A stretch of DNA of 64,000 bases. It comes from Allacma fusca (lineage: Eukaryota; Arthropoda; Collembola; Symphypleona; Sminthuridae). Under the pieces are notes generated by a model that was given only the letters and a program-made list of their open reading frames with translations, was not told the DNA's origin and did not search any database. Position 1 is the stretch's first letter. Each line of letters begins with the position of its first letter. The stretch is from contig OX359245.1 in assembly GCA_947179485.1 (NCBI GenBank), forward strand, positions 73,581,067 to 73,645,066, in the 5' to 3' direction. Below, in pieces: positions 18,801-36,226 of the stretch. A program made the position numbers and the translations under genes.

Positions 18801-19816
18801 CGAAGAAAGCTCAAGTTCAAAAGGAAACTGAAGATTTTGACAGAAATATTATCACTGACATTGGAATGGGGACTGATTGGTCTCCTACTCCAAAGTCAAC
18901 GACAGCAATAACGTCACAAAGTCCAGCCAATGGGAAGGTTGACATTAATTCACCAAAATCCCTAGGACAGATGACACGGAGTACAATGGAATTCACAACA
19001 ATGGATGGGGCAGGTGAGGCTGAAACTAAAGCTGTACATCTACCACCAGCCATAATTGTAGACTCCGATACGGAAGTCCATGATCAAGCACTGAAGAATC
19101 AGGAGACAGCGGATCTGGTGAGCCAGGCAGCTGAGACTACACAAAAGAAGTCCTCAACTTTCCCGCCCACCCATCCCGCCAGTCCTAAAGAGGCCAAGAA
19201 ATTGGTACTCATGAATGAGGATAGGAACGTCCAAAAGGAATGCGACCGACCGACACTGAAACAGGAAAAGTTCAGTGTGGAAAATCACATTCCATCCGGA
19301 CACGATCCCACAGATGAGGAGAAAAGATTTGCATTTGAAGAGACTTGGAGGAATCCAACGTCAGCAAAAGGATATGAATGGAAGCTCAAACAGGAAGTTA
19401 TTTCGCAATTGAAGACATACACTGCACAATCTGCCAGGAAGACTGATCAAGTTCCTGATGCAGACAGTCCAGGATATGTTAACAATCCGGATCTTGATAC
19501 CCCACAGCGGATCAAGGCGATGAAAATTTCCAGAGATGTGGATGAATGGATGAAAAATATCCAACGAAGATCTGCAGCATGCGAGTCGGAGGAAAACAAA
19601 AACCCTCCGCCGTCGCATACGTACATATCCACAGAGAATCCAGTTAATGAAGATAATTTCTCTCTACTGGCGACCACAGTAGAAGAGCTGAGGAAAAATA
19701 TCCAGGAAGGTGAAATTAAATTCACCAATGGAAGATCATGGAAGATTCAACCTCTGAAAGGGCAGGGTGTTGTGACAAGTAAAAAGACGTCACATTCACT
19801 GTCTTTCACAGGATGA
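15860..19816 (+). CDS. pol: Pol part 1: protease, reverse transcriptase, RNase H, long C-terminal linker
   Basis: An ATG at 15908 gives 1302 residues, but the frame is already open from the frameshift site, so a Gag-Pol fusion is the likely product. Numbered from that ATG, the aspartic protease motif 'LLDSGATRSC' has its D at 51. The reverse transcriptase has 'FRSVVDYRALN', 'FDTLDMESGFFQL' and the catalytic 'YLDD' at 492-495. RNase H starts at 'HTDAS' (D651), with 'ELELAAVVYAV' and 'RSDHLAL'. After the usual '..DFLSRAPLP' end (about 760) come about 540 acidic, low-complexity residues that I cannot assign. Most Gypsy elements have about 100 residues here before integrase. The ORF stops at TGA 19814-19816, 38 bases before the integrase ATG and in a different frame. 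Confidence 0.9.
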   Translation, partial: LTEGDAPPVIEDIQEKMNAIIATRVESQSKDDEELEIIDLNPCRLSNGNKSTLQVQICSMMIPALLDSGATRSCIQRNLVPRCAEIKEVPSALRVAVANAELVKPICLTKFTMMIEGEKLLFKGLVMETLEPRMIIGEDLLSRYGITLDYKNNEIRSDRFQTVPMTRDTHLYVGEKKADIEFVKSIFSFHEVKGPKNMMCRTRKAVTIPAYGHMKVPIQIPKRIKKDFYLQPSEKLYTSKRLLVAAGVVPNEEPFAYVFNPAPCPQTMYGRTAIGHAEENFDLIKIKRNQLRDAHKKLTQEQLDCFDVNEELDEEGRAKYRALLTRYPECFAFNKGDLKEPAWIDPIRIHTGNNPPVQAKPFPCSPMERQKVREEVQKMLDADIIKEVNGPYSSPLFLIKKKDGTFRSVVDYRALNKTITDQVYPLARIDDILMQFGKSAIFDTLDMESGFFQLLIHEDDQVITSFITQDGLYAFKRLPMGVKIAPSAFQRAADQMLGSLKFRGAMVYLDDVISYGIHLLDKLASLEELMLRASNKNFKFKPKKCKFGYFEVIVLGFKVSREGTSPDPAKVDAIRHVPIPKSETEARRFFGICSFYRKYIKDFAKIASPISQSWIGSKGKSEGQKRIRCFQWSADATSAFNILKTKLMTQPFLAHFNPELDCILHTDASISGLGCCVLQDDGGEHPIAYASRTLIQSEKNYSVTELELAAVVYAVRKLRQYLYLRKFLIRSDHLALCYLRLQKDPNHRISKFVNKLQEFDFQVTYKKGALHLDADFLSRAPLPYTKEDLEDTEDRVIEFEPDPVKEHKIALEEQKQIPQGNIIMPPPACAASLTTRESYKGKYWTDDESQSSDEDEAIIPQRQNPWSGRLKGQPRRKVKSQVEILVPQPKLEETDWENHTMSVKSRVNEVTHSYSALKEWKLSVDDIITIHEFREDDPQEDENTWKYTNEYIYEKNLKLIQDIELHNATINDLDMKEFLSPKKAQVQKETEDFDRNIITDIGMGTDWSPTPKSTTAITSQSPANGKVDINSPKSLGQMTRSTMEFTTMDGAGEAETKAVHLPPAIIVDSDTEVHDQALKNQETADLVSQAAETTQKKSSTFPPTHPASPKEAKKLVLMNEDRNVQKECDRPTLKQEKFSVENHIPSGHDPTDEEKRFAFEETWRNPTSAKGYEWKLKQEVISQLKTYTAQSARKTDQVPDADSPGYVNNPDLDTPQRIKAMKISRDVDEWMKNIQRRSAACESEENKNPPPSHTYISTENPVNEDNFSLLATTVEELRKNIQEGEIKFTNGRSWKIQPLKGQGVVTSKKTSHSLSFTG

Positions 19817-19853
19817 AGGCCAAAGGAATAAAGACGCTCAGAAAACTGAGGAC

Positions 19854-21365
19854 ATGTCATTAAATAGAGCAATAAAATTTGTTCCAGGAGCTCACGCACT
19901 ACAGGGGTGCGAAGGGAGCCAAGATACTTTTTCCACACACAAGCCTGTGTGTAGGATACTTGAAGATGAAGAACAAGTTACTATGTTAGAGGAACATAAC
20001 ATGCAGGAGATGCAAAGGGACGATCCAGATTGTTTATTCATCATGGGCAAAATAAAGATGCGGCATACGTTAAATTGGAAGGACAAAGAAAAGTATAGCC
20101 GATATGAAATTGATGAAGAAGGGATTCTTACTATAATACATAAAGATGGACGTAAGCTATACGTACCCCGAGTACTTAGAAATTTCCTACTATCAAAAGC
20201 TCATGATGGGATCCTATGCGGAGGACATTTAGGATTCCAGAAAACTCTTCATAGACTCAACAAAAACTATTTTTGGAGAAAAATGAACGTCTCAGTAGCA
20301 AAATATGTCATGTCATGTGAAAGTTGCCAAGCAGCTAAATCCATGAGAATGAAACCAGCAGGATTACTTCATCCAATCAGGATAGAAAATGTAGGAGATG
20401 CATTATGTATTGATCTCATTGGACCCATGCAAATTAGCATAAAAGGGAACAAGTACATTATAATCGCACAGGATTATGTTTCAAAGTTCGTGATCGCAGA
20501 AGCAATTCCAGATAAAACTGCTGACAGGATAGCAGAATTTTTGCTTCACAAAGTAGTTTTAAAATACGGACTGTTTAAAAACTTGCTGAGTGACGGAGGA
20601 TCCGAATTCAGAGCGGAAATCACTCAAGCATTACTTCGCAGATTAGGCATGAACCATTCTACATCTACAGCATTAAGACATAATAGTGTTGGACAAATAG
20701 AAAGAATGGTCCAGACTATAAGCACTATGCTGAGTCATTATACTCAAAAAGAGCAAGCACTATGGTGCCGTTGTTTACCGTTTCTAATAAATGCTTACAA
20801 TTGCAGTCACCATGACGTGACCAAAGAAACTCCTTATTTTATGATGTTTAGGCGACAACCCATATATGATTTTAACTTACAACTGTGTTTAAGCAGCATC
20901 GACACAAATTTTATGAGTGCTGAGGAAGCCACTACTAGAATAGGAAAAGCTATTGCTAAGATAAGGGAACGTCAGGACTACAGTAAGGATTGGTATGATA
21001 GGAAAAGAAGGTTCGTTAAATTCAACATCGGAGACACAGTGCGAGTCTTTACACCGACCAGGATAGTTGGAAAGAGCGAACGCTTTCTTCACCCTTACAA
21101 AGGACCCTTTGTAGTCATAGAAGTTTTAGCCAAAGACAGTTATATCATTCAAGACCTTAGGAATTCTAAAAAGAGACAGAAAGTCCATGTGGAAAGGCTT
21201 AAGAAGTGCCTCCAGCGACAACACATTGAGGACGAGTATAGTTATGATTTAGATTCCGATATAGTGGAATTGGTGACAAAACGAAATTGGAACAAGTGTG
21301 GAAAAGTTATAGTGAGTCAGCCACGGTCAATTCTTAAGAGTTCGACCACTTCAGATAACAGTTAA
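19854..21365 (+). CDS. Integrase of Gypsy-like element, with GPY/F module
   Basis: This has 503 residues from the ATG; the frame is open from 19776 and so overlaps the end of the preceding pol frame by 41 bases (+1 relative). Near residues 119-165 is the zinc-binding region 'HDGILCGGH..CESCQ'. The catalytic triad is D186 ('ALCIDLIG'), D247 ('LLSDGGSEF') and E283 ('VGQIERMVQ'), giving D-x60-D-x35-E spacing. The C-terminal 'HPYKGPFVVIEV' is the GPY/F module. 'DGGSEF' and 'VGQIER' differ from the commoner 'DNGTxF' and 'NGxxER'. The protein inserts the cDNA into the host chromosome. It stops at TAA 21363-21365, after which the same frame stays open for another 561 codons. Confidence 0.9.
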   Translation: MSLNRAIKFVPGAHALQGCEGSQDTFSTHKPVCRILEDEEQVTMLEEHNMQEMQRDDPDCLFIMGKIKMRHTLNWKDKEKYSRYEIDEEGILTIIHKDGRKLYVPRVLRNFLLSKAHDGILCGGHLGFQKTLHRLNKNYFWRKMNVSVAKYVMSCESCQAAKSMRMKPAGLLHPIRIENVGDALCIDLIGPMQISIKGNKYIIIAQDYVSKFVIAEAIPDKTADRIAEFLLHKVVLKYGLFKNLLSDGGSEFRAEITQALLRRLGMNHSTSTALRHNSVGQIERMVQTISTMLSHYTQKEQALWCRCLPFLINAYNCSHHDVTKETPYFMMFRRQPIYDFNLQLCLSSIDTNFMSAEEATTRIGKAIAKIRERQDYSKDWYDRKRRFVKFNIGDTVRVFTPTRIVGKSERFLHPYKGPFVVIEVLAKDSYIIQDLRNSKKRQKVHVERLKKCLQRQHIEDEYSYDLDSDIVELVTKRNWNKCGKVIVSQPRSILKSSTTSDNS

Positions 21366-23051
21366 ACTACGAGCAAGAAGGTGACTTTTAAAGTTCAACC
21401 TGCTCAAACCGAAGAAATAACTAGAGAATTTTCATCCGAAAGTTACTCAGACAGTTCAAGTGACCAAACTCAGCCAGTTCAACAGAGAGGAGAATTTTGG
21501 GACAAACATTACTCACACTCTCAAATCACCCCAAGTGGAGGAGGGAAACCAAACCAGGGACTAAATCAACACAAAGATAACACTCAAGGAGGAAAAGGTA
21601 CTACTAAGCAGTCAAGTACGCAAGTAAGAAAATTTTCCTCAGAAAATTATTCAGATAATCGGGAATTTTTAGATAAAAATTACCCATATTTCACTCGCTC
21701 GAAAGTAAATGAACACCCTAGAGAAAATCAGGGACGAGATAAGGGGATTGAAACAACAGAGGAATTTAGTTCAAATAAAAATTTGGAAGTACGCAGCTCA
21801 GGAAGAGTACATCAAACAGAGAATCGCAGCTTTAGAACTGCTAATTCAAGAGACAAAACCTCAAACGTCAAGTTTCTGCCCACAAGTGGAGAAATCACAA
21901 GACGAGGTGCAACCAGAGTAACTGATGACACATACAAAGAGAGAATTAATCCTAATCATCAAGGGATTACAAGCCCAATTAATCAAGGCAAAGGAGAACG
22001 AAATTCGTCTCCAACAAAGAATTTTACGTCAGATTGCGGAACAGGAGGAAGTACTGAGCAAACTGAAACAACTCGAGGGAGATCACAAAGCGACCCTCCA
22101 GGAAACTCAGAAAGCCAAAGAAGATATTTCGGATTTAATAAACCAGCTGAAAACAGCGCAGGTGTAACATCGGAAGGTGAGGAAGAAACTCAACCACTCA
22201 TTGACGAAAGTGACTTTAAAACACTTAAGAAATTAAGTAGTTCAGGGATAAGCCCAACAGAACTTGATGTGGACGACAGCAGTGAGTATAGAGAGACAGA
22301 TTCTTACAATTCGGGATCAGAACCGAGAATTAATCAACCGCCTACGACAGAGAGAGGGAGACCTGGACAAATTGAAACAGGAAATCAAGGACCTTCAGAA
22401 GCGACTTCACGAGTTGAGGTGCCTTGGCCCTCAGTAGAGGCGGATATTTCGACACAATTGCTTCACTCAGATGAGCAAAAGGCCTTGGAAGAGCCCCCCT
22501 TTGTGGAACTCAACACCAAGCCCACCCAGCGAAGCTCAGAGACAAACACTGCAAAGCCTACAAGCGCAAGGCAGTCGGATCAGAGAGGCAATAGCACGAG
22601 TGGAGAGAGAAATAGAACAAACCGAGAGAGTCAAGAATACTCTGAAAAATCAAATTCGAGCAGCCAACAGGCTAGCCAACAATTCAACCAACCCACGGAA
22701 CGAAAAGTCCTTGTAGAAAATTCTACAGAAGAGGACGAAGAGTTCCAGGAAGTTCCAGCAGAAGAAAACGGACAAGACTCTGTAGATACGCATACAGAAG
22801 TCATTAATATACCTGTAGAATTTTCTACAGAAGAGGACAGGTCATTGGATGTCATCACGAAAGACAATCCCAGAAGGCCTGAGAGAATTAGAACGGATAC
22901 GTCAGATCACCGAGAAACATTCAGCGATCCTCAAAACCCGAAGAGTGCAAATCCAACAGGAACTTCAACAAGTTCAGGAGGAAATCCGGGAACTAAAGAA
23001 GCAGGCAAAACACCTCAAGGAGAAAGCGCTGAAGACACCGGAGAAAGTTGA
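21366..23051 (+). CDS. Methionine-free disordered extension in frame with integrase
   Basis: This frame is open for about 560 codons directly behind the integrase TAA and in the same frame. It contains no ATG, so the only simple route to translation is readthrough of that TAA, or the TAA is a recent mutation. The product is hydrophilic and apparently disordered, rich in Ser, Thr, Glu, Asn and Arg, with internal repeats such as 'EFSSESYSD'/'KFSSENYSD', 'EFWDKHY'/'EFLDKNY' and 'VENSTEEDE'/'VEFSTEEDR'. I recognise no domain. Five short ATG-initiated ORFs with coiled-coil character overlap it in another frame. An open run this long is hard to get by chance, so some constraint or youth is implied. 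Confidence 0.55.
   Translation, partial: TTSKKVTFKVQPAQTEEITREFSSESYSDSSSDQTQPVQQRGEFWDKHYSHSQITPSGGGKPNQGLNQHKDNTQGGKGTTKQSSTQVRKFSSENYSDNREFLDKNYPYFTRSKVNEHPRENQGRDKGIETTEEFSSNKNLEVRSSGRVHQTENRSFRTANSRDKTSNVKFLPTSGEITRRGATRVTDDTYKERINPNHQGITSPINQGKGERNSSPTKNFTSDCGTGGSTEQTETTRGRSQSDPPGNSESQRRYFGFNKPAENSAGVTSEGEEETQPLIDESDFKTLKKLSSSGISPTELDVDDSSEYRETDSYNSGSEPRINQPPTTERGRPGQIETGNQGPSEATSRVEVPWPSVEADISTQLLHSDEQKALEEPPFVELNTKPTQRSSETNTAKPTSARQSDQRGNSTSGERNRTNRESQEYSEKSNSSSQQASQQFNQPTERKVLVENSTEEDEEFQEVPAEENGQDSVDTHTEVINIPVEFSTEEDRSLDVITKDNPRRPERIRTDTSDHRETFSDPQNPKSANPTGTSTSSGGNPGTKEAGKTPQGESAEDTGES
21709..21921 (+). CDS. Overlapping mini-ORF 1, coiled-coil
   Basis: 70 codons from an ATG, in the +1 frame relative to the Met-free ORF that covers it. 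Two amphipathic stretches with leucine/isoleucine heptads are visible ('LEKIRDEIRGLKQQR', 'IKQRIAALELLIQE'). The TAA is followed after one codon by the ATG of the next mini-ORF. No known family recognised. Confidence 0.4.
   Translation: MNTLEKIRDEIRGLKQQRNLVQIKIWKYAAQEEYIKQRIAALELLIQETKPQTSSFCPQVEKSQDEVQPE
21925..22167 (+). CDS. Overlapping mini-ORF 2, coiled-coil
   Basis: 80 codons from an ATG placed three bases after the stop of mini-ORF 1, an arrangement suited to reinitiation. Almost the whole product is helical in character: 'IIKGLQAQLIKAKENEIRL', then 'LKQLEGDHKATLQETQKAK' and 'ISDLINQLKTAQV'. It is in the same frame as the other mini-ORFs. Confidence 0.45.
   Translation: MTHTKRELILIIKGLQAQLIKAKENEIRLQQRILRQIAEQEEVLSKLKQLEGDHKATLQETQKAKEDISDLINQLKTAQV
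22267..22437 (+). CDS. Overlapping mini-ORF 3, coiled-coil
   Basis: 56 codons from an ATG to TAG, in the same frame as the other mini-ORFs. It has the cleanest heptad pattern of the set: 'RELINRLRQREGDLDKLKQ' continuing 'EIKDLQKRLHELR'. The frame covering it encodes an unrelated disordered stretch. Confidence 0.45.
   Translation: MWTTAVSIERQILTIRDQNRELINRLRQREGDLDKLKQEIKDLQKRLHELRCLGPQ
22471..22716 (+). CDS. Overlapping mini-ORF 4, coiled-coil
   Basis: 81 codons from an ATG. A Pro/Ser-rich start of about 20 residues is followed by a heptad-bearing helix ('LQSLQAQGSRIREAIARVE', 'REIEQTERVKNTLKNQIR'). It shares frame and general size with mini-ORFs 1, 2 and 5. Confidence 0.4.
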   Translation: MSKRPWKSPPLWNSTPSPPSEAQRQTLQSLQAQGSRIREAIARVEREIEQTERVKNTLKNQIRAANRLANNSTNPRNEKSL

Positions 23052-23112
23052 CGATACCCAACTCGTACCCGAAAAAGGACGAGAAGATTTGGATCAGTCT
23101 GAAAGCGAATGA
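22849..23112 (+). CDS. Overlapping mini-ORF 5, coiled-coil
   Basis: 87 codons from an ATG. The core 'IQQELQQVQEEIRELKKQA' is a strong coiled-coil pattern, followed by a charged tail. Its TGA at 23110-23112 overlaps the ATG (23109) of the next ORF as ATGA, a classic termination-reinitiation arrangement. The last part (23052-23112) lies beyond the Met-free ORF and so is not overlapped by it. Confidence 0.5.
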   Translation: MSSRKTIPEGLRELERIRQITEKHSAILKTRRVQIQQELQQVQEEIRELKKQAKHLKEKALKTPEKVDDTQLVPEKGREDLDQSESE

Positions 23113-23435
23113 GCACCACCAGATACTTAACAACAATACCAAACTGTGTTAGTTTTGGTCAAAGCGAGATTGATCTCAAGATTGGAGACCGTATAAATCT
23201 CATTAGTTATCTCATACGACAAGGTCGAAGGAGAATCCGATACGTAGGTACGTACACAATCATTAAAACAGATTACTGCAAAGTATTTTATCTTCAACCA
23301 GATGTCAGAGAACAGAGGGTCACGTGCATCCGGGTCTCGAACCAACGAGACTCCACGCCAAGACGCCCTACCCGCCGTCGACAGGGACGACGACGATCGA
23401 CCACGTTATTGGACCCAATACGTGAGTCAAACTGA
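23109..23435 (+). CDS. Small accessory ORF, Arg-rich C terminus
   Basis: 108 codons, with the ATG overlapping the stop of mini-ORF 5. The first 75 residues look folded ('YLIRQGRRRIRYVGTYTII'), and the tail is strongly basic ('RRPTRRRQGRRRSTT'), which might bind nucleic acid or act as a nuclear signal. Its last 134 bases overlap the next ORF in another frame. Not recognised. Confidence 0.45.
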   Translation: MSTTRYLTTIPNCVSFGQSEIDLKIGDRINLISYLIRQGRRRIRYVGTYTIIKTDYCKVFYLQPDVREQRVTCIRVSNQRDSTPRRPTRRRQGRRRSTTLLDPIRESN

Positions 23436-24135
23436 AGTGGAAATACCACAAGCAAAAATTTTACCAAACTCAGATACGGGACGACTGGAAGTTGTTCTCA
23501 GAATAGACGGGAAGTTACCCCATAGGATTATCGTCCAAGGACGAGATGGGCGAGAGATCGTAACCCATTCAGTACTAATTGGAGCTCTCAGAAAACCTCG
23601 AGAGTTAACAATAGATTATCGCATACTACGACGAGAACCGCACTTTTGCGGGTCAATAAATTTTCCGGAACAGCAACTGGAAGTAGATAGAGGCGAGCGA
23701 GCGCCAGATGATCTTGTTTACCTTTTTAAAGGACAAGAATTTAATCCCACTCCCATACGACGACAGATCCCTATCTGTAGAACACGTAATAGACAGCCAG
23801 ATGACCCATGGCTAGTCCAAAATTACAGGCAAGAAAAGGACGTGCCCGGACAAAAGAATCCAAGGGGAGATTATGACCATGATCCATGGGCATTTACTCC
23901 AGGCCTTCAATATGAACGAGGCAAGACAAGTCGAAGCTCATCTCGGAAAGTGATGGGAGCCGACCCTATTTGTGGAGTAACCCGAGTCAACATCCCCGAA
24001 ATTAGTGAATGGTTACCGCAACAAGAAGAACAGGTCGAGGACGTAGCCCATAGAATCAGTAGACGTATTGATGACAACAATCCATCAACAAATTCCAAAG
24101 TTGGATCTCATACAAACCACACTGGCGAAATTTAA
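23302..24135 (+). CDS. Accessory ORF of Gypsy-like element, unknown function
   Basis: 277 codons from an ATG (aagATGt context) to TAA. The product is hydrophilic and rich in Arg, Asp and Pro, with no signal peptide, membrane segment or familiar motif. The middle looks most ordered ('GRLEVVLRIDGKLPHRIIV', 'LTIDYRILRREPHFCGS'). It starts inside the preceding ORF, in the frame used by the mini-ORFs. Position at the 3' end suggests an element accessory protein. It is not an envelope protein. Confidence 0.55.
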   Translation: MSENRGSRASGSRTNETPRQDALPAVDRDDDDRPRYWTQYVSQTEVEIPQAKILPNSDTGRLEVVLRIDGKLPHRIIVQGRDGREIVTHSVLIGALRKPRELTIDYRILRREPHFCGSINFPEQQLEVDRGERAPDDLVYLFKGQEFNPTPIRRQIPICRTRNRQPDDPWLVQNYRQEKDVPGQKNPRGDYDHDPWAFTPGLQYERGKTSRSSSRKVMGADPICGVTRVNIPEISEWLPQQEEQVEDVAHRISRRIDDNNPSTNSKVGSHTNHTGEI

Positions 24136-24290: not shown

Positions 24291-26220
24291 TAAGTTTATT
24301 TCAGAAAATCTATTTCGATTGTGAACTCATGATTTTGTAAAATTGTTTCAAATTAGAACGTCTGAAAAATTTAATAATAATTTTGGGATGTACAGTGTAC
24401 ATATATAATTACGTAAAATCAATTTCTCATCACACCCAGTATGAATAAGTAAATGACCAATAAATATATTTCGACTCCCATTGCACTAGTGAAAAGTGCT
24501 CATAAGGCTTGTCTTAAAAGTTTTAATTCATTTGCTTCCTTCAATAATTGTCCCAGTATTTGCGCCATAAATGTACCAAATTTTCCTGGATTTTATAAAA
24601 CATTTGTGTGGATTCTTTGAAGAGTTTAAAATGCTTTGCTGGAATGATTGATACTTTAGAAACCTTTTATTTTATAAGATTTTCCAAAATTACAGAAAAG
24701 CCAGAAGTGGTGCAAATAGTTTTGATTTGTGTGAAAATGTATTCCGGTTTTGACGATTGAAGTTATCCTGCTTATGTTTTTCCATATGAGTTCTCATTGC
24801 TACCTAGATATCATTAGCGAGTACTACCATCAGCTGTCTGTAATCACAAAATTAGATACAATCATTGAAATAAGGTAGCGGGTCAGCAGAACGCTTGAAT
24901 GCGCATGGCTAAAAGAATTCTTGTTGTTGTTCTAGAGATATTTTTTATGTTATTCCGCCGATTCTATGATACAATTTCCTTGCAGGAATTTCTTGTACCT
25001 CTGTTTCGTAAATTTGAAAAATTACTTACCAAAGTTATCTGACCCTATAATAAAGTATCCACAGGCTAGAAACCGCAAGTAGTTTTTATATAGTTTACAT
25101 TCACGTCGGCAATCCCATCAAGAATTCACAAATTCCCAGGTGCATTTCTGCAGACCGGAAATGAAAGCAGAATTCATTTCATATTCATAAATACTTAAAC
25201 TGCTGTCAGCCATAAAACGTTAGTGTCATCATTTTATTCCTGCGAAAGAGGAATTTTTAAATTGATGCTGGCGTTAATGTTATAAAATCAAACAATTAAT
25301 GACTTGTACCAAAATTATAAGTTGCGCAATGATATTTGATGACTCCTACCGGTCCACATTGTAACAAAAATATATATAAGGAATTTAAGGAATTTATGTG
25401 GGGACATTAGTACCTGTTTATTATGAAGTGTTTAACTTTCACTGCATTTTTTACAAGTCCAGCAGATGACCCGATCTGCGTCAAAATCAATAAGACTTTG
25501 ACGCATTATTCATGACTGAATCACATTTTTTGTTTCAGCTGCGTCCTGTTTAACTCTAATGTTCGTACGTCCTAGATGATTGCTTAGAAACTATATACCC
25601 AACGGATTTTAACCCAACTTTACACAGCGATACTTGGCAATGTTTGAGACGCATTTAGGTCGAAATCGGTGGTTCCGTTTCATCAAGATTGAGCTACATG
25701 AAATAGGTTTGATTTTACAATCAACAAGCTCCATACGGCAGTTATCAATACAATGGGAAATGTATTTTTTCGAAATCGCCAGGAACCTTTTAACATAATG
25801 ATGCTCCATTGAATTTCTAAGGGAAAAACCAACACGAAGCATAAGGACAAAAATTGTGTCATACAGGGGCTCATTACTTATTTGTCAACTAACACTAAGT
25901 TGTTCAAAAACGTTTCTGTTAAAAAAAATTTCCGTGTAATTAAATACTAGTAAATTGGGATTTTTTACATTCAATTTAATTCAATTGATTCATTTTTAAA
26001 TTGATTCACTGAATCAATTCATAGAATATTTAGAGGCGCTGTTGTAAAGAACTTATAAATAACAGACCAAGTGAGAAGGAACCGTGTAAAGGAAGAGAAT
26101 GAAGTTTCTATCACTTTTGTTTTACGCTATCTTCCGGCTCTGCTGTTATGACCTGCAAAAATCAATGCTATCAAAAGTGTGACAGAGTGCGTAAATTTCA
26201 AAAATTCGCAGTTTGGGGCC
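24291..26220. other. Non-coding stretch
   Basis: AT-rich, with no ORF I would defend. A patch of 'ATTCAATT' words at about 25970-26025 resembles the one at 59680-59820. The last five bases, GGGCC, are the left target duplication of the copia element. Confidence 0.5.
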
Positions 26221-26668
26221 TATTGAAATAAAAGAGACTGAAAACCGAAGCTTATACCTTCACAATATCAGTTCTCCGACTAACCTTTATTAACAACTAA
26301 ACACATATTTATAAGGTACAGAAATGTCATGGTATTATTATATTATTGACCAACGGTCATAATTTCATAATCACCCTAATGTTGTGCATACATACATTCT
26401 TGACTATTTCCTAATCATAAGTAAAGGTTAAATGTTTATTATCCAATAACATCATGCCCGGATTTCAACACAAGGTGTGAAATCCCCTTTACATCTTAAC
26501 TATGGAATCTGCTGTGTGTGCATTTCCTGTCACGGAGTGCTGACACTGAGCTACTGCCCGAGCATCTCACAATCACACAGAGATGTAATCAATACTTATT
26601 ATTACTCAACTGAACATTACTGAAAGTGCATGGTCAGACATAACTCTGCCATGACTTAACTTTCAACA
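26221..26668 (-). repeat. 3' LTR of copia element
   Basis: Read on the minus strand it begins TGTTGAAAG and ends TTTCAATA. It carries a TATA-like CTTATAAAT (complement of about 26307-26315) and an AATAAA (complement of 26286-26291). Just upstream lies the polypurine tract TAAGGAGGG (complement of 26669-26677). Confidence 0.95.
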
Positions 26669-26752
26669 CCCTCCTTAATGTAAGTTGCTGTAAAATAAAA
26701 TTGATTAAAACATACACAGAATTATTAAAGAACTCAAAATATTAAGTAATTC

Positions 26753-29700
26753 TTAACCTATGGAAATTTCTTCAACATGATGAAATTTCTTCGCTGCTGA
26801 CGGGACGTCTTCTTTGATGTCCTCGTCCCCAATCTGCTCCAGCTCGATCATTTCAGTTTCCGGTGTAGATTCAACCTTGAGATGTCTTCTCTTGGCCCTC
26901 CTCAATTTTCGTGGCTTCAGCACCTTCTTGCACTTTTTGTATCCTATAAAAGCGCCGATGATTCCAGCCAGAAATAGTACCAAGCTTATCAGCATCCAGG
27001 ATCCAGCACCATACATCTCGTCTCCAGTTTGACGGGTCCAGTGATTTTTGTCCAAGGGCTCCAGTATCGGGAACGTCTCGTTCAAATCATCCCATTTAAC
27101 GACCGGGGAGAGATGCCACTCAATCTTCTCGTGGAGCAAAGGGTCCTCTTTCTCATTATAGATCAAGTTTAAAATATCTCCTCGATAAGTTAAATTGTCT
27201 ATTGAAAAAGTAGCTGTGAGGGGCAAAGTGAACACCTTGCTTGGGCATTTCACTTTGTTCTTGTCGCCTCCTCTGACATACTCCCTTCCAGGGCAGTATA
27301 TATAGAATTTGTTGTTATGTGTCTTAACTTGAACAAATTCTTTCTCATCTCCAGGTTTGCTCGGAAGGCAACGCAGGGTCTTATAATATTTGCCCTCGTC
27401 CTTGGCCGTTTCCAGATCCATACACTCAGTTGAGCGGGAGGCAAACAGCTGAGTTGAGGATTTCCTCCTCATATCTACAGCTCGGAGACAGTCCTCTTCA
27501 GGTGAGAGGAGAGCATTTTCAGGGCCAATGTATTCCAATTTACATGTCTGATCCTTATCCTTAAGCATTAGGAAGAAGGGGTCGGCCTCTAAAACTGTCA
27601 TGTTACTCATAACAGGTACCGCAAAAAGTAGTTCCAGTTCGGAATCTTCTCGATCCAACGAACATCTACGGAATTCTGCGTATTCGATGGGGCATTCTTG
27701 ACCGCACGGGAGGGAGACGTTCATGAAGTCAAAGAAGTTATTGTCCATCTTCTTTTTATTCCAGAGCCGTCTTGTTTCTTGTACTACCCCCCGTCCTACT
27801 AACAATCTTGAAGTTATGTAGGATACAAGATAATTAATCTCAATCACTTTTTCTTGGAATAAATGAACGTCATTGATTAAATTGTTAATCGTCTGAGCCA
27901 TTTTATCCACCTCGAACTTTAATTTGGCCAAGTTGACGCTGTTGATTTTTACTTTTTCCTCCAGGTCATCCATAGTTCTCTCAATTTCCAACTGAGTGAT
28001 TTCCAATTTATCGATGTGTAATGCATAAAGTCCAATGCCGATTCCGGCGCTTGCCGTACATACCACTATTATTAAAAATATTAGGGTAAAGAGTTCCCGT
28101 TTGTCCCTCTGAAGCCGAGTGTCCTTTGGTGGACATGCCATCCGCAATTCTTCCAAGAATAATTTCTCATATTGATTCTCGCATTGCTTCATTATTCTCT
28201 CCGCGGCCATTGTGGTCAGGCCATCCGTCGGGAGAAATTTGCATGGCGAAATTAAGCTAATTCTCATAGCTACAGAGTTATAGCCTTCAATGGCTGGGGT
28301 GAGACTCCGTCTCCAAATCACAGCATTACCCTCCTGGAATTTTTGGCAAAATACCAGAGGAAAGAAAAGTATGAACAGTATCACGTTCCACAGTGATGAC
28401 AGTGCACATACCCTCTTAACTGCTTGTGAGCTGGTTTGAGGCTGGTCAGGTTCCTTTACTTCTACCGTCAGTTTCCGAGTGAGGGAGAGTAATTCCATTT
28501 TGGGCTCGAATTGTTGCCGACCCAGTGGCTTCGTTAGTATATCGGCCACTAACCTTCCAGTTTGTAAGTATTTGATCTCTACTTGCCCCGTTTCCACTAA
28601 CCATCGGATGTAGTGGTGTCGCACATCAATGTGCTTCGTCCGGTCATGAAATTCCGGATTTGCCGCTAATTTCATACTGCTCTGATTATCAGTAAAAATT
28701 GTGAATGACAGGGTGACATTGTATATGTCAATGTCAGCTAACAGGTTCCTGAGCCATTCCCCCATTTTGCTAGCTTCGCTCAATGCAACGTACTCAGCTT
28801 CCGTGGAGGAGTGAGCGATGAGAGTTTGCCTCTGACTTTTCCAGTGCAGAGGTGAGTCATTAAGAGTGAAGATAATGCCTGAGGTAGACTTCCGAGTCTT
28901 TTTATCCCCAGCATAGTCTGAATCACTGTATCCTTTAAAACTCGTTTCCGCCAAGCGAGTGTAACAGAGTCCTAGCTTTTTAGTAGTTACTAGGTACCGC
29001 AATACCCTTTTGGCTGCCTCCCAGTGTTTTCTCTCGTAACATTGAAAGTAGCGGGACAGTTTACCCACGGCAAAGGAAATGTCCGGTCTGGTACATCGTG
29101 AGATGAACAGCAGAGCTCCTACTAACTCCTGGTATGGTAGTGATGGGTCATGATCTTTTGAGAACATGTCTACATCTAAATCCGGATTAGCGGCCATTGG
29201 TATGCTGGAAGTTTCACACTTCTCCATACTAAACCGTTTTGCAACTTCCATTATGTACGGTTCTTGATGTAGCATAACTTGTGTGTCCGTGATGATGACT
29301 TCCATTCCCAAGAATTTCCTCACGTCTTCTGTTGACGTCATCTTATAGGTGGCTCGTAATTCTTTCATTATGAGGTCCATTGAGGATTTACTGTTTCCCG
29401 CAAGGAGACCGTCGTCTACATACAGTGCGAGTATCATTCGTGTATTTCCACTGTTGTAGGTGAAGAGGCAGGAGTCATAGGCTGACTTTACAAATCCGAG
29501 GGAGATGAGTATTGCCTTTATGAGTTTGTGCCAGTTCCGAGGGCTTTGTTTTAGTCCATATAAACCCTTCTCAAGTTTACAGACATACCCTCCTGAAACT
29601 TCATAGCCTTCCGGCTGTTCCATATAAACCTCCTCGTCTAGAGGAGCGTTCAGGAAAGCTGTACTCACGTCAAATTGAATGACTTGTAAGTTTTGCTGAG

Positions 29701-30874
29701 CTATGGCAAAAAATACTGCTCGCACTGTTTCGTATCTCAGAACAGGTGCGAAAGTTTCATGAAAATCTATCTCAGGTCGCTGACCATATCCTTTGACGAC
29801 TAAGCGAGCTTTTCTGCGAATCCCCCCGTCAGATAACTTTTTCTCTACAAAAATCCACCGATTTCTGAGTAGTTTTGCATTGTGGGGACGTTTGACTAAT
29901 TTCCAAGTCCTGTTTTCAATGAGGCTGCAATGTTCTTGGTCCATAGCTTCCTCCCACTCAAATTTAAACCGATTGCGGCGTACATCTTTGAATGATTTTG
30001 GAACTTTGTAATTGTCAGGAATTTTTTCCGGAGGGCAATTTCCAACTGCATGAAAACAATCCACTCCGACATAAAATCCGGACTGAAATTTGGGTCCGGG
30101 TACTCCTGCTGTAGTCCTGGTCGTTCGTCTGAGAGCTGATTGAGGCTGAGTGTCTCCGCTGCTCCGTCCTGGAGTTGGAGGAGATTGTACTTGTGGAATT
30201 ACTACTGTATCCCTGGAGGCATCAGCTAATTCTTCCTCAAATGATTGTTCCAACTGGTCATTCCATGAAACTTGAGGAATACTCTGTGTGGAGTCTAGGT
30301 TTGCTGACTGAAATTCTTCATCAGAATCTGTTTCCGAGTCAAGACTGCCACTTCCAGCGTCAATAACTAGTGCATCACTATCTGATTCGACTGCTGGATC
30401 ATCAGTTTGTACTTGGGCCGGGGCTGATGGCCGAGTACTACACCCTGGGATGGGTGATTCTGGTCTGGGTGGTTCCTCCGGAGCTAAAGTATCAAGGAGC
30501 GAAGGGCTTCTCGCCTTTAGTGTCTCCTTATACTTTTTAGAAATTCCTGCCGGATGAATCGTCGTCCTTTTTACGGGAGTGGATGTTAGTCTCGGAGTGA
30601 ACACGGGCTGGGGGCTCGGAGGAGCTGGAATTTGGGCCGGCATTTGAGGAGTATGAAGAGGATTTGGCACAAATTGAACTTGCTTCACAATTGTGATGTC
30701 CTCAGGTTCTTCATCTGATGAGATGGTTTCAACCTCCTGAACTGAGCTTTCCGGGAGTTTGTCGAGAAAAATCTTTCCAGGATTTTTTCCCACTCCTGTA
30801 TCAGTTGTCATTACTTCCTCGTAGAAGAGTGCATGTCGGGTGTAAAAGTATTCATTTTTTACCGTATCCCACAT
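26753..30874 (-). CDS. Copia reverse transcriptase-RNase H fused to envelope-like glycoprotein
   Basis: 1373 residues from the first ATG after the in-frame TAA. The RT shows 'QFDVSTAFLNAPL', 'GLYGLKQSPRNWH' and catalytic 'YVDD'. RNase H shows 'SDSDYAGD', 'SSTEAEYVALSEA' and ends 'VADILTKPLGRQQF' (about residue 790), where copia Pol normally stops. Here the frame goes on for about 560 residues: a hydrophobic signal-like segment (about 822-845), a basic furin-type site 'RDKR' (about 922-925) directly followed by a long hydrophobic stretch, a heptad-rich region ('LEITQLEIERTMDDLEEKV'), a cysteine-rich ectodomain with N-x-S/T sites (NVS, NMT, NLT, NET), a membrane anchor (about 1290-1315) and a charged tail. 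This is the layout of a class-I-like fusion glycoprotein. An ATG just after the RNase H end could start a separate envelope product from a spliced RNA. Confidence 0.9.
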   Translation of the reverse strand: MWDTVKNEYFYTRHALFYEEVMTTDTGVGKNPGKIFLDKLPESSVQEVETISSDEEPEDITIVKQVQFVPNPLHTPQMPAQIPAPPSPQPVFTPRLTSTPVKRTTIHPAGISKKYKETLKARSPSLLDTLAPEEPPRPESPIPGCSTRPSAPAQVQTDDPAVESDSDALVIDAGSGSLDSETDSDEEFQSANLDSTQSIPQVSWNDQLEQSFEEELADASRDTVVIPQVQSPPTPGRSSGDTQPQSALRRTTRTTAGVPGPKFQSGFYVGVDCFHAVGNCPPEKIPDNYKVPKSFKDVRRNRFKFEWEEAMDQEHCSLIENRTWKLVKRPHNAKLLRNRWIFVEKKLSDGGIRRKARLVVKGYGQRPEIDFHETFAPVLRYETVRAVFFAIAQQNLQVIQFDVSTAFLNAPLDEEVYMEQPEGYEVSGGYVCKLEKGLYGLKQSPRNWHKLIKAILISLGFVKSAYDSCLFTYNSGNTRMILALYVDDGLLAGNSKSSMDLIMKELRATYKMTSTEDVRKFLGMEVIITDTQVMLHQEPYIMEVAKRFSMEKCETSSIPMAANPDLDVDMFSKDHDPSLPYQELVGALLFISRCTRPDISFAVGKLSRYFQCYERKHWEAAKRVLRYLVTTKKLGLCYTRLAETSFKGYSDSDYAGDKKTRKSTSGIIFTLNDSPLHWKSQRQTLIAHSSTEAEYVALSEASKMGEWLRNLLADIDIYNVTLSFTIFTDNQSSMKLAANPEFHDRTKHIDVRHHYIRWLVETGQVEIKYLQTGRLVADILTKPLGRQQFEPKMELLSLTRKLTVEVKEPDQPQTSSQAVKRVCALSSLWNVILFILFFPLVFCQKFQEGNAVIWRRSLTPAIEGYNSVAMRISLISPCKFLPTDGLTTMAAERIMKQCENQYEKLFLEELRMACPPKDTRLQRDKRELFTLIFLIIVVCTASAGIGIGLYALHIDKLEITQLEIERTMDDLEEKVKINSVNLAKLKFEVDKMAQTINNLINDVHLFQEKVIEINYLVSYITSRLLVGRGVVQETRRLWNKKKMDNNFFDFMNVSLPCGQECPIEYAEFRRCSLDREDSELELLFAVPVMSNMTVLEADPFFLMLKDKDQTCKLEYIGPENALLSPEEDCLRAVDMRRKSSTQLFASRSTECMDLETAKDEGKYYKTLRCLPSKPGDEKEFVQVKTHNNKFYIYCPGREYVRGGDKNKVKCPSKVFTLPLTATFSIDNLTYRGDILNLIYNEKEDPLLHEKIEWHLSPVVKWDDLNETFPILEPLDKNHWTRQTGDEMYGAGSWMLISLVLFLAGIIGAFIGYKKCKKVLKPRKLRRAKRRHLKVESTPETEMIELEQIGDEDIKEDVPSAAKKFHHVEEISIG

Positions 30875-30883
30875 TTTATACTG

Positions 30884-33175
30884 TTATGTGTCTGGGACAT
30901 TTGCTACATAAAGACCCTTGCGTCCTTGTTTGCCCCATTTTGCCGGATCCATTTGCTTGCCGCTGATGGCAGGGCATCCAAAAATCCTTAGATGGGAAAG
31001 ATTCGGTTTCTTTCCAGTCACCATCTCTATAGGTGACATTTTTGTGTTGGTTGTACTTAAAACTCGGTTGAATAAGTACACAGCCATAGCTACTGCATCT
31101 TGCCAGTGGTTCTCTCCAAGACCTGCTTCCACTAACATCGCCCGAGCCATTTTGGTGATGGTCTGGACCTCCCGTTCAATCTTTCCATTTGATTGAGGAT
31201 TGTAAGCAGGGGTAAAATCATGAGCAATTCCTCTCTGTGAGCAGAATGTGGCCCATTTGGAGTTCTTGAATTCCGTCCTATTATCAGACTTAAATCGCCT
31301 CACGGGATTTTTTGTCTGAGTGGAAATAAAGTTCACTGCATCAATGAGGTTGATGACTGTACAATCAGCTGTTTTATCCACTTGAAAGTATCCCAGCCTG
31401 TAGTTTGAGGCATGATCTTTCACCAGTAAATAATACTTGCATCTCTGGTTGGAAATAGCTGCTGCATGTACAAGGTCAGCATGTAACAGTTCTCCTGTCT
31501 CATACTGCTTGTCATGGGTTTGAGTTTTGAATGACTCATTGTTCATCTTTGTGATGGCACATATCTCACACTTATACTTCTTCTCTATGCGGTCGTCCTC
31601 TCTGAGGTGTGCCGCGCCATCTTTGAAGGTTTTGTGGAGGAACTCAAAGTTCATGTGGCCCATCCTTTCATGCCAGCGTTGACTTATTGGCCTTGAAATA
31701 CCGATGACTGCGAGTGCCCTGGGAAAACTTGTTGGTAGTCGGAAGTTCATAATGTGAATCTTATCATGCACTTCAGTTGCATTGATAGTTTCCTCTCCCG
31801 TAGCCTTGTTGATAAACACAGACTGTGTACCATCCATCATGTATCTGTATCCCAACCTGTTGTAGGTTCCGACGGAGAACAGATTTATTCCTCCTGGGTA
31901 ATAGATGACATCATCCAAAACCAGAGGTTCCCAATGGCCACGAATTTTTGCTTCAAGCACTATGGTTCCCCTTCCCGGGCAATCCACAGGCCTGTCGCTT
32001 ACCGCCATGAGCTTCCAAGGTTGCTCAAATTCTTCAAAAGATGAGAACCAATCCTTTTGGCCGCACAAATGAACTGAGGCCCCTGTGTCGCATACCCATT
32101 GGAATGCGGAGCGCCTAATTCTTCCTGTTGAGGGCTTGAAGTGTGTTGAGCTGAGGGCAATTGTCTTCCCGGGAGTGTAAATAGGCCTTAACATACAGGC
32201 TCTAATTTCTTGAGGTTGCTTGGGCTTTTGGGATTTCTCATCCTTATTGCCATCCTGCTTTTGCTCTTTCGGGGCTTGCTCCTTACGCTCTTTTTTCTCT
32301 GAGCGGCATTCTGCTTTCCAGTGCCCTTTCTTCCCACAGTTGTGGCAGGTGCCTGGTTTCTTCTTCGCCTTCCCATTGTTGGCATTGTTCCCATTGGCTT
32401 TGGGATTCCCTCCCTGTGCCTTTGGGTGCCCGGCGAACATTGCACGTTCTGATGGTGCATCAGACTGTTTATGTGTGATAAACAGACGTAACTGGGATTG
32501 AAAATTTCCCATGGTCCGTTCAACCTCAGGTTGCCCCCTCCACATGGTGACGAAACTTTCATAGTATCCGCCCTTCATAGCATGGATGCATTGGCTGATG
32601 ACATCGTCTTCGTCTAGGGGACCCTTCCCGGGTTTCAGTTGGCTGTTAATTAAGCCTTGCAAATCCTGAAGTTTTTCCAAAACTTCCATTGCATCACAAT
32701 CCGGGGTGACTTTCCATTCCCGGAATTGATCCTTGAGGTCTTCCAATGATAAGGAATTTGACGCTCCGTAAGCTGATTTCAGCTTGTTCCACATTTCAGC
32801 GGAAGTTCTGCAAGACCGCGTGAGGATAGTTGCTTTATTATCCAAGGCCATAAGGATAATTCCATAAGCTGCCATATCCGTGCGTTGCCATTCTTTCTTA
32901 TCTTCATCTGTTCCGGTTGAAGGATAAGGAGTAGTTCCATATACTACATCTTGCATATCTGCTCCACAAAAAACTGCGTGGAGAGCCCTGCGCCAGTCGA
33001 GGTAGTTATGTGCCCCCGCCAGCTTCTGGTATTTTGACGAATCCAATTTGTACGTACGGTGTACAGTTTGATTTGCCATGACTGGGATAGCAGTAGCTGC
33101 TGCTCCTTGGGTCTGAGCTTGAGCTTGCTTTTTCACTTGGGATGGACTATTCGGATTAGATCCTTGTTCTGACAT
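30884..33175 (-). CDS. gag-pol: Copia Gag-protease-integrase
   Basis: 763 residues from an ATG at 33175, about 530 bases inside the 5' LTR. The N-terminal Gag has the copia-type 'YLDWRRALHAVF' and 'EMWNKLKSAYGA' region. The CCHC knuckle is 'CHNCGKKGHWKAEC' (277-290). Protease is 'VCDTGASVHLCG' with D363. Integrase has the zinc region 'HERMGHMNFEFLH..CEICAITK', then catalytic D ('ELLHADLVHA'), D ('FKSDNRTEF') and E ('QSNGKIEREV'). The ORF ends at a TAA after 'VANVPDT', in the linker that normally joins integrase to RT. The downstream RT ORF is in the same frame, three codons on. The stop is either a single nonsense change or a readthrough site. Confidence 0.92.
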   Translation of the reverse strand: MSEQGSNPNSPSQVKKQAQAQTQGAAATAIPVMANQTVHRTYKLDSSKYQKLAGAHNYLDWRRALHAVFCGADMQDVVYGTTPYPSTGTDEDKKEWQRTDMAAYGIILMALDNKATILTRSCRTSAEMWNKLKSAYGASNSLSLEDLKDQFREWKVTPDCDAMEVLEKLQDLQGLINSQLKPGKGPLDEDDVISQCIHAMKGGYYESFVTMWRGQPEVERTMGNFQSQLRLFITHKQSDAPSERAMFAGHPKAQGGNPKANGNNANNGKAKKKPGTCHNCGKKGHWKAECRSEKKERKEQAPKEQKQDGNKDEKSQKPKQPQEIRACMLRPIYTPGKTIALSSTHFKPSTGRIRRSAFQWVCDTGASVHLCGQKDWFSSFEEFEQPWKLMAVSDRPVDCPGRGTIVLEAKIRGHWEPLVLDDVIYYPGGINLFSVGTYNRLGYRYMMDGTQSVFINKATGEETINATEVHDKIHIMNFRLPTSFPRALAVIGISRPISQRWHERMGHMNFEFLHKTFKDGAAHLREDDRIEKKYKCEICAITKMNNESFKTQTHDKQYETGELLHADLVHAAAISNQRCKYYLLVKDHASNYRLGYFQVDKTADCTVINLIDAVNFISTQTKNPVRRFKSDNRTEFKNSKWATFCSQRGIAHDFTPAYNPQSNGKIEREVQTITKMARAMLVEAGLGENHWQDAVAMAVYLFNRVLSTTNTKMSPIEMVTGKKPNLSHLRIFGCPAISGKQMDPAKWGKQGRKGLYVANVPDT

Positions 33176-33707
33176 ATAATGTTATTAATTCTTAAATTCT
33201 TCTCGAATTTTATAGAACGCTTAACAAAAATGTTTAGTTCACTTTTGACAACCACAACTTTCCAAATTCTGATCCTTAACTGCACCCTTCTCGGAAGCTA
33301 GTAATTTTTCAGGAATTTTTCGTAATAAAAGTTGGTTTCTAAAAGGTCGAGGTTGGGGTGTTGTGAGAGAGTAGGCTTGTAGTATTTTTCCACTCACTGA
33401 TTGTGATGAATTCACGGAGTCAATATTAATAATAATAACCTTCTCAGTTATACATAAAAATAATTGACTGTAGTTTAAACGAATACTCACACTTTAGAAA
33501 AAAACTTTGATAGACTGTTTCTCCTCGCACTTCTAAACTTTTTCCCCCCGTAGTCTGAAAGTACTGTACTTTTCGAGACTGTTCCTTCACTAACTTGAAA
33601 ATATTTTCCAAAAAAACTTTTCTGTTTCAGTGACTTGATGAACTCAGAACTTGTACTGTGATAAATTTCTAATCTATTCACAGGCAAGTTTGAGCGTGTT
33701 GATAACG
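33176..33707 (-). other. Copia 5' leader
   Basis: Untranslated leader between the 5' LTR and the gag ATG. Two short minus-strand ORFs (33490-33239 and 33687-33487) have no recognisable features. The bases after the LTR (CGTTATCAACACG on the minus strand) should hold the primer site; I could not match them to a tRNA. Confidence 0.5.
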
Positions 33708-34155
33708 TATTGAAATAAAAGAGACTGAAAACCGAAGCTTATACCTTCACAATATCAGTTCTCCGACTAACCTTTATTAACAACTAAACACATATTTATA
33801 AGGTACAGAAATGTCATGGTATTATTATATTATTGACCAACGGTCATAATTTCATAATCACCCTAATGTTGTGCATACATACATTCTTGACTATTTCCTA
33901 ATCATAAGTAAAGGTTAAATGTTTATTATCCAATAACATCATGCCCGGATTTCAACACAAGGTGTGAAATCCCCTTTACATCTTAACTATGGAATCTGCT
34001 GTGTGTGCACTTCCTGTCACGGAGTGCTGACACTGAGCTACTGCCCGAGCATCTCACAATCACACAGAGATGTAATCAATACTTATTATTACTCAACTGA
34101 ACATTACTGAAAGTGCATGGTCAGACATAACTCTGCCATGACTTAACTTTCAACA
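33708..34155 (-). repeat. 5' LTR of copia element
   Basis: Same 448-bp sequence as the 3' LTR apart from one base. On the minus strand it is the promoter-bearing copy that would start the genomic RNA. The right target duplication GGGCC follows at 34156-34160. Confidence 0.95.
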
Positions 34156-34160
34156 GGGCC

Positions 34161-34522: not shown

Positions 34523-36226
34523 CAGTGGTCGTCACGGGAACGAGTGCGGGGACGGGTTCGGGAACAAATATTTTGTTTCCAATCGGTTTGGGTACAGGAA
34601 CAGGAACATACTCAAGTGGACCCCACAGTTGGGAACAGGAAAGTTGATCTTCATTTTGTTCCCGTTCCCATCGGGAACGGGTACAGTCTACGCATGATCC
34701 CGTTCCCACGTCTAGTGCTGTAATATCGTTCGCGTTTTGTTTGATCTTTTGTTTAGTTCTTGTTTTTTGAACAAAGCAAAACAAACAACGTCCGTTTTCG
34801 AAAAAACAAAACCGCGGTAAGATAAAACAAAACTATAACAAACAAACCACCACGATAGCGAGTAAAGAACCTTTTCCAATTTTGAGTTTGAAAAAGTGCC
34901 TAAAAATAACATGACCTCAAATTGATCTTAGTAAGTCACAAATAGCAACATGACCTCGAATTGACCTGAGTGAGTCACAAATCGCAACATGATTACAAAT
35001 TGATCTTGCAGTATTGAGTCACAGAGAGTCACATGACCTCAAATTGACCTTAGTGAGTCATAAAAAGTTTCATGACCTCAAATTGACCTCAGTGAGTTAC
35101 AACAAGTTCCATGACCTCAAATTGACCTCAAGGGGCACATGAAATTCCATGAACCTTAATTTGACCTCAGTGGGCTACAAGAAATTCCATTACCTTAATT
35201 TGACCTCAGTGGGCTACCAGAAATTCTATGACCTTAATTTGACCTCAGTGGGCTACAAGAAGTTTCATTACCTCATTTTTCGATCGGTCACAAGAATTCC
35301 CATGACGTTAGTTTGACCTTAGTGGGTTATTAGTAGACCCGTGACCTTATATACACTTTATATTGGATTTAAAATAACTTGCAACGGAGTGCACGGTTTT
35401 ATTTACATGTGCACCTATCATTTATGCTTTGAACCGCTGGGTTTATGTAAGTTCAACAAAATCTTTGCACTATTTACAGATCTTTAAGACCAAGCTAAGG
35501 TTATTGAACAAAGTGTAAGGTAGAATGCCTACTAGATGTCAATGTATTAATTAATTGTTACCTGCTATTACCATAATCTGTACTGATATTAGATGTTTGG
35601 GTACATCGGATATTGTAAAAGAGAGCAATTTCTGTTGAACATCAGTGATTATTTGGACAAATGTCACCTCCACTGCTGAAATTCGATTTTATTTTGCCGT
35701 TTTTAATAAAATGCCGAAGGATAACTTGAATGCTAAACTATATACATTGATTCCAAAATGCTGAAACTAGTCTCTGTGAGTTGACAGGAAGAAAGAAATA
35801 AAAGAGGCCTAAGGAATCCAAAAAAACAATACAGGTTATTAATTCAATTAAGGCATTGGGCGAACCCAAATCGAGGCATATCGGTAGCACTAGATAAACC
35901 CAACCACAATCGTTTGTTGATATACTATGTCTATACATGCGGTCATCACAGGTCTTGTGGATGCACGTAATTACATTACGCCTTACAACCCTAGAAACTA
36001 TGAACAAACGGTTTGATGCGTATGTCTGTTTTTTATGTAAAAAATGATGGGTTCGGTAGTTACTGAAATCCTGGTCATAAATTTTACTACACTTAAGTAC
36101 AGTATCACTTGGACCCCGGAATGATCCCACGATGACGGGAACAGGTCTGGGTACGGGAACACTTAAGGGGAGTACCCGTTGAGTGGGAACAGGAACGGGA
36201 ACAAACGTTTTGTATGACGACCACTG
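34523..36226. mobile_element. hAT-type non-autonomous element with internal minisatellite
   Basis: The inverted ends CAGTGGTCGTCA are flanked by the 8-bp duplication TTTCAATA (34515-34522 and 36227-36234). Both subterminal regions carry repeated GGGAACGGGAAC-like words in mirrored orientation. The interior contains a tandem array at about 34911-35345. No transposase ORF is present; the 171-codon minus-strand ORF at 36253-35738 runs through the end repeats and looks incidental. Confidence 0.9.
34911..35345. repeat. Minisatellite, ~39-bp unit
   Basis: About eleven degenerate units of roughly 39-43 bp share the pattern ATGACCTcAAaTTGACCTcAG followed by TGaGtcACAA. Unit starts at 34911, 34950, 34989, 35032, 35072, 35111, 35149 and onward. 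It lies wholly inside the hAT-type element. Confidence 0.85.

Follow-up and report, generated by a model that had tools for sequence, protein, structure and literature searches.

An in-frame envelope-like glycoprotein downstream of Pol in Ty1/copia elements of the springtail Allacma fusca

In the profile published by the International Committee on Taxonomy of Viruses (ICTV), the Pseudoviridae are described as lacking an extracellular phase and as forming particles that are not infectious, and an envelope protein (Env) is given only for the plant Sireviruses, where it is putative (PMC8515867). The table of the same profile nonetheless allows for possibly enveloped virions and for a possible env open reading frame (ORF) in the family (PMC8515867). 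Here, we describe a Ty1/copia long terminal repeat (LTR) element in a 64,000-nucleotide stretch of the Allacma fusca genome (assembly GCA_947179485.1, contig OX359245.1, positions 73,581,067 to 73,645,066; hereafter the window), in which the frame of Pol runs on into an envelope-like glycoprotein. We propose, with good confidence, that this element belongs to an envelope-bearing animal clade of Ty1/copia, with a class I, F-like fusion glycoprotein as its Env and probably a single gain at its root. The capture of env by LTR elements is already known; the novelty here is that the capturing element is an animal copia, whose Env is joined to Pol and laid out like an F protein.

The excerpts available of earlier work describe env capture for errantiviruses and BEL elements (PMC12440569, PMC13172572) and report that the element Anakin carries a chuvirus env (PMC12440569). 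A survey of zebrafish, in the portion accessible, mentions env in connection with Gypsy and has six copia elements in its list (PMC8672886), and the accessible part of a Drosophila study has 412 and Stalker2 moving between cells without Env (PMC11952523). No animal copia element with env was found in the literature listings searched, which covered open-licence work and consisted mostly of titles and the beginnings of abstracts.

How, then, do the springtail elements compare with these systems? With other Ty1/copia elements, such as Drosophila copia, they share the LTRs, a 5-bp target-site duplication (TSD), Gag_2 with a CCHC knuckle, a DTG protease (PR), an integrase (IN) placed before the reverse transcriptase (RT), RVT_2, and RNase H (RH), but they add an in-frame C-terminal envelope-like glycoprotein. 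In plant Sireviruses, too, an env-like gene comes after a copia Pol, whereas here the host is a springtail, Env is fused to Pol, and the protein has a class I layout with an RxKR site. The likeness to errantiviruses (Gypsy) and to baculovirus F lies in the presence of an env in an insect LTR element and of a furin site followed by a fusion peptide; in contrast, the springtail sequence fits their fusion-peptide consensus at 1-2 of 6 positions and its Pol is Ty1/copia, not Ty3/gypsy. The F proteins of paramyxoviruses and pneumoviruses are laid out as F2, RxKR, fusion peptide, first heptad repeat (HR1), core, and anchor. This is also the layout of the springtail Env, and weak fold leads point to the same proteins, but there is no detectable sequence relation and the springtail Env sits in a retroelement polyprotein. 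Finally, the env-bearing BEL/Pao elements of mosquitoes (Chuviridae-type) are likewise LTR elements of arthropods that have captured a glycoprotein from a virus, although theirs, in the excerpt available, are type III glycoproteins combined with a BEL Pol (PMC13172572).

A conserved domain beyond the copia RNase H

A preliminary description of the window had reported that the frame extends past the copia RNase H, and this extra domain is borne out: 576 codons beyond RNase H are open from 28483, which has a chance of about 1e-16 given the base composition. The other five frames over the env region contain 22-43 stops, and codon usage resembles that of the element's own gag and pol only in the env reading frame. 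Together, these three observations rule out a chance ORF. The hydrophobic peaks, RDKR, cysteines (Cys), N-glycosylation (NXS/T) sites, and anchor also lie where that description had placed them, and the heptad score of the window copy is reached by 4 of 200 shuffles. The env part of the window copy has 16 Cys and 4 NXS/T sites, and its features are as follows:

28346..28402, minus strand: hydrophobic, signal-like segment where RNase H and Env meet (hydropathy 2.24)
28109..28345, minus strand: short segment resembling F2 or a surface subunit (SU), with 3 invariant Cys (alignments)
28097..28108, minus strand: RDKR cleavage-type site (RxKR in 16/16 and in 8/8 aligned rows)
28028..28096, minus strand: fusion-peptide-like hydrophobic, Ala/Gly-rich stretch (hydropathy, alignment)
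27806..27988, minus strand: heptad-repeat (HR1-like) long helix (heptad score, helix in model, coiled-coil profile matches)
27020..27721, minus strand: ectodomain core rich in Cys and in strands; 9 of its Cys are conserved (alignments; strands in a weak model)
26942..26998, minus strand: membrane anchor (hydropathy 2.40)
26756..26941, minus strand: cytoplasmic tail, basic at its start (by reading)

The order found, namely signal, polybasic cleavage site, hydrophobic stretch, heptad repeat, and C-terminal anchor, is the class I layout.

Searches of the Allacma fusca genome (392.7 Mb in 91 contigs) recovered many relatives. A 401-bp DNA probe yielded at least 40 copies (40 of 58 candidate stretches scored), 28 of them at 98-100% identity and 12 at 84-86%. 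With the env protein of the window copy as query (74 of 273 candidates scored), there were at least 74 matches, comprising types A (~98%), B (84-88%), C (54-56%), and D (37-39%), as well as fragments. A type-D env query (75 of 290 scored) gave at least 79 matches, including two further types with 53% and 36% identity to D, and an RT query gave at least 132 matches (131 of 225 candidates scored). Another type, represented by the sequence L101, has an env of ~30% identity to that of the window copy (31% in alignment). The preliminary description had raised the prospect that the domain might be absent from the other copies of the family; this is not so, as many siblings share env, and their number rules out a private oddity of one copy.

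Among the 26 type-A copies with an open env frame, env divergence averages 0.65% over 325 pairs, 2 of which are identical. This low divergence shows that the A-type family has been recently active, and the window copy, at a mean distance of 1.5% from the 26, falls in a sub-branch set slightly apart. Among the A copies, L021 is broken, and a full-length open env frame is missing from 6 of 12 B-type stretches.

For the alignments and selection tests, we chose rows with open frames: 16 in alignment A1 and 8 in alignment A2, which adds the 30% type L101. The RxKR site is invariant in both. Eleven Cys columns are full in all 16 rows of A1, a further column has Cys in 15 rows, and a tail column has it in 13; A2 has 12 Cys that are invariant in its 8 rows. 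Within the ectodomain core, 8 Cys are present in 16/16 rows and one in 15/16, and all 9 are present in the 8 rows of A2. The anchor hydropathy peak occurs in 16/16 rows and the junction hydrophobic peak in 15/16 (the 16th row begins inside it), the latter being weaker (1.4-1.5) in the 7 type-D rows. In several types, the junction segment ends in small residues ahead of the conserved ectodomain start, as an internal signal peptide would.

The ratio of nonsynonymous to synonymous substitution rates (dN/dS) for env is 0.059-0.063 between types A and B (at dS 1.3-1.4), and within types it is 0.065 for B, 0.053-0.098 for C, and 0.084-0.114 for D, with three of the dN/dS pairs saturated. The window copy and a close sibling give 0.265, and the least constrained part of env is the anchor together with the tail (0.22-0.26). 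In a pair of C subtypes, the proportion of nonsynonymous differences (pN) is 0.147 for RT-RH, at a synonymous proportion (pS) of 0.82, and 0.179 for env, at a pS of 0.83; thus, the constraint on env is almost as strong as that on RT. The env domain is under purifying selection across deeply diverged subfamilies, with dN/dS mostly at 0.05-0.11.

The window element and its interrupted frame

The window element is a Ty1/copia (Pseudoviridae) retroelement of the springtail. Its integrase lies upstream of RT-RNase H, its RVT_2 and gag_2 are of the copia type, and it has paired LTRs, a short TSD, and a polypurine tract:

26221..34155, minus strand: whole copia LTR element, 7935 bp (paired LTRs, TSD, polypurine tract)
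33708..34155, minus strand: 5' LTR, 448 bp, differing from the 3' LTR at 1 site
26221..26668, minus strand: 3' LTR, 448 bp, pairing with the 5' LTR
34156..34160, no strand: target-site duplication GGCCC (5 bp), 5' side (letters read)
26216..26220, no strand: target-site duplication GGCCC, 3' side (letters read)
26669..26676, minus strand: polypurine tract AAGGAGGG, abutting the 3' LTR on its upstream side
30884..33175, minus strand: ORF1, with Gag, protease, and integrase up to the first half of the SH3-like region (Pfam and motifs)
30884..30886, minus strand: TAA closing ORF1 within the SH3-like region of integrase (translation and profile match)
26753..30874, minus strand: ORF2, with RT, RNase H, and envelope-like protein, 1373 aa, in a frame identical to that of ORF1

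Pfam identifies Retrotran_gag_2, Pol_BBD, gag_pre-integrs, and rve in ORF1, which also has a CCHC knuckle, and RVT_2 (4e-49) in the first piece of ORF2, where the match ends well before the env part. In the translations, we recognise what we take to be the protease DTGAS, the RT YVDD, and the acidic residues of integrase and RNase H; the RNase H end motif presumably lies at about 28520-28550. A degenerate tandem repeat with a unit of ~39 bp (ACATGACCTCAAATTGACCT...) adjoins the insertion at 34870-35353.

The window copy had been called complete and young. It is a young insertion, with one mismatch in the 448 positions of its LTRs and the TSD GGCCC kept, but it is not complete, in view of the TAA in the C-terminal SH3-like region of integrase. 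Only positions 1-39 of the 73 in the SH3-like profile match before this codon, which separates Gag-PR-IN from RT-RH-Env with the same frame on both sides. A single frame of 2144-2147 codons is present in 25 of the 27 full-length copies that are at least 98% identical, a set that includes the window copy; the two exceptions are the window copy itself (1376 codons) and one other (1255). Judged by frame length, the normal product of the family is a single Gag-Pol-Env polyprotein, and the window copy is broken. Its stop may have been gained after insertion, or the copy may have been mobilised in trans. Since the stop falls between the integrase core and RT, we would not expect the window copy on its own to yield Pol or a fused Env.

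Origin and expression of the envelope-like domain

What kind of protein is this domain? The env part matched no sequence family in scans of Pfam, PHROGs, and PDB sequences, and no relatives were found at the sequence level in collections of viral contigs and genome contigs. No Pfam F or env profile was among the 25 of 27 families listed for 16 members, nor was there one for the 30% type. The gammaretroviral Env profile TLV_coat (PF00429) stays below its cut-off, with matches in 4 of 16 members (best E 0.0025) and, for the one member with a score listed, 14.6 bits against a cut-off of 22.5. The fusion-peptide consensus of errantiviruses and baculovirus F, GxxxxxGxxxKxxxGxxDxxD in the accessible part of its source (PMC6563192), is matched behind RxKR at 2, 1, 1, and 1 of its 6 fixed positions in four rows.

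A single-sequence fold of env, and a PDB search with it, gave no lead. A weak AlphaFold model, with a helix at the heptad region and strands in the ectodomain core, gave fold leads to paramyxovirus and pneumovirus F proteins, and the BFVD fold rows include one nucleopolyhedrovirus envelope fusion protein. Coiled coils were matched in a profile search of the heptad region.

One option is that the C-terminal domain is a membrane-tethered protein other than a fusogen, acting in membrane targeting, particle assembly, or superinfection interference. This would agree with the lack of sequence family matches and with the weakness of the fold evidence, but the signal, RxKR, Ala/Gly-rich stretch, heptads, and Cys-rich core are kept in order at 30% identity and the fold leads point to viral fusion proteins, and we think it unlikely. 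We consider it most improbable that the domain is a captured host membrane gene instead of a viral envelope. No viral relative was found at the sequence level, as a host origin would have it, and 6 of 82 env matches are without an RT match within 6 kb among the RT matches listed; 4 of these 6 contain stops. Against a host gene stand the other 76 of the 82, which do adjoin a copia RT within that distance, and the viral character of both the layout and the fold leads. (The 82 comprise 69 of the 74 matches to the window query, five second fragments of listed copies having been dropped, and 13 matches to the D query.) We favour, as before, a class I, F-like fusion glycoprotein.

Next to copia RT, env also appears to have had a long history. 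With one RT piece compared per type, RT-RH identity is 57.0% for A-C, 49.6% for A-D, and 48.6% for C-D, and env identity is 60.6, 42.4, and 39.8%, respectively; the L101 type has 43% for RT and 31% for env. The two sets of identities stand in the same order, and env divergence tracks RT divergence, which fits one old acquisition. Among the RT matches listed, 76 of 132 have an env match up to 6 kb downstream: 30/30 at RT identities of at least 95%, 15/16 at 79-89%, 7/12 at 50-56%, 24/31 at 45-49%, and 0/43 at 40-44%. This last figure reflects how far the env search could reach, because L101, the only one of the 43 that was read, carries env at 30% identity. Frames of 1900-2027 codons occur in 21 of the 43, so these may have the env domain too.

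How Env is made is a separate question. Env is in frame after RNase H in those copies of types A, C, and D that were read; for one copy each of types C and D, the continuous frame was followed all the way from integrase to Env, and elsewhere from RNase H to Env, and the L101 sequence begins at the RNase H end and continues in frame into env. In the remaining copies, continuity was judged by frame length, and frames of 1900-2216 codons are common among the matches listed. That no subfamily read has a stop between Pol and Env points to polyprotein translation. The main rival follows the errantivirus model: a subgenomic mRNA made by splicing would encode Env, and the shared frame would be a relic. 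Drosophila copia and gypsy both splice, and in the window copy the leader contains a donor-like GTGAGT (33491), weak acceptor-like sites lie near 28682 and 28285-28431 (as scored with a hand-made matrix, without a control), and there is a Met at 28498. However, a Pol-Env join that went unused should have gathered stops, and yet nothing interrupts the RNase H-Env frame in any copy read of type A, C, or D or of the 30% type, even though the linker between the two, which is charged in type C (L098 with L080), has ~170 residues there versus ~40 in the window copy. The commonness of the long frames counts against splicing as well, and we lean away from it while taking it as a serious possibility.

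In the reading that we favour, a glycoprotein gene whose product folds like paramyxovirus F would have entered an ancestor on a single occasion, and the open Pol-Env frame would be translated as one Gag-Pol-Env polyprotein. The hydrophobic segment after RNase H would serve as an internal signal sequence that takes Env into the endoplasmic reticulum (ER) and leaves Gag-Pol in the cytosol, with signal peptidase releasing Env and a furin-like protease cleaving it at RxKR. A trimer of Env would then fuse membranes through its fusion peptide and helical refolding, and particles could pass from cell to cell (for example, from soma to germ line) or between animals. For ER entry, furin cleavage, trimer formation, fusion, and spread, we argue by analogy with class I proteins. 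The elements may be infectious, now or recently. A wider scenario, which we regard as an even call, is that a single ancient gain of a class I, F-like glycoprotein gave rise to a diverse, recently active clade of enveloped, retrovirus-like copia agents in an animal, with Env made as the C-terminus of the polyprotein by way of an internal signal.

The presence in several animal copia subfamilies of a fusion-type glycoprotein that is in frame, conserved, and under selection challenges the ICTV picture of the Pseudoviridae, and relatives at graded distances within one genome make it possible to study the step from retrotransposon to enveloped virus. It also raises a question of topology, namely how a Gag-Pol-Env polyprotein is sorted between the cytosol and the ER. 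Springtails are hexapods outside the insects, in which soma-to-germline spread and defence by PIWI-interacting RNAs could be compared with the errantivirus case. If true, the wider scenario would mean that the retrovirus-like life style arose independently here, in addition to Retroviridae, errantiviruses, and env-bearing BEL elements.

Neighbouring sequences in the window

A large Gypsy-type element with an unusual layout and gag size occupies 9153-24135. Its 2244-aa ORF ends in a CCHC knuckle, its PR-RT-RH ORF (1302 aa) and integrase ORF (503 aa) are separate, and two charged, low-complexity-looking ORFs (556 and 277 aa) are without a Pfam match. We rejected this element as a source of env, as its ORFs at 21381-23051 and 23302-24135 reveal, when read, no membrane or fusion features and have neither a Pfam match nor a local env match. 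We also set aside an env match at 42575-42715, which is weak (E 0.12) and falls in an ORF with the look of a host exon. ORFs on the minus strand at 39868-40401 and 42443-43063 share the pattern GKC.RLF.S..C.G.S.A.YPG and are probably exons of duplicated host genes.

Long ORFs on the plus strand at 1-1407 and 56662-58758 have weak, sub-cut-off matches to Lig_chan and are possibly ionotropic receptors. On the minus strand are a Gypsy pol fragment at 61771-63975, with the RT end, RNase H, and integrase, and, at 45311-46529, transposase-like ORFs whose resemblance we take to be to PIF/Harbinger.
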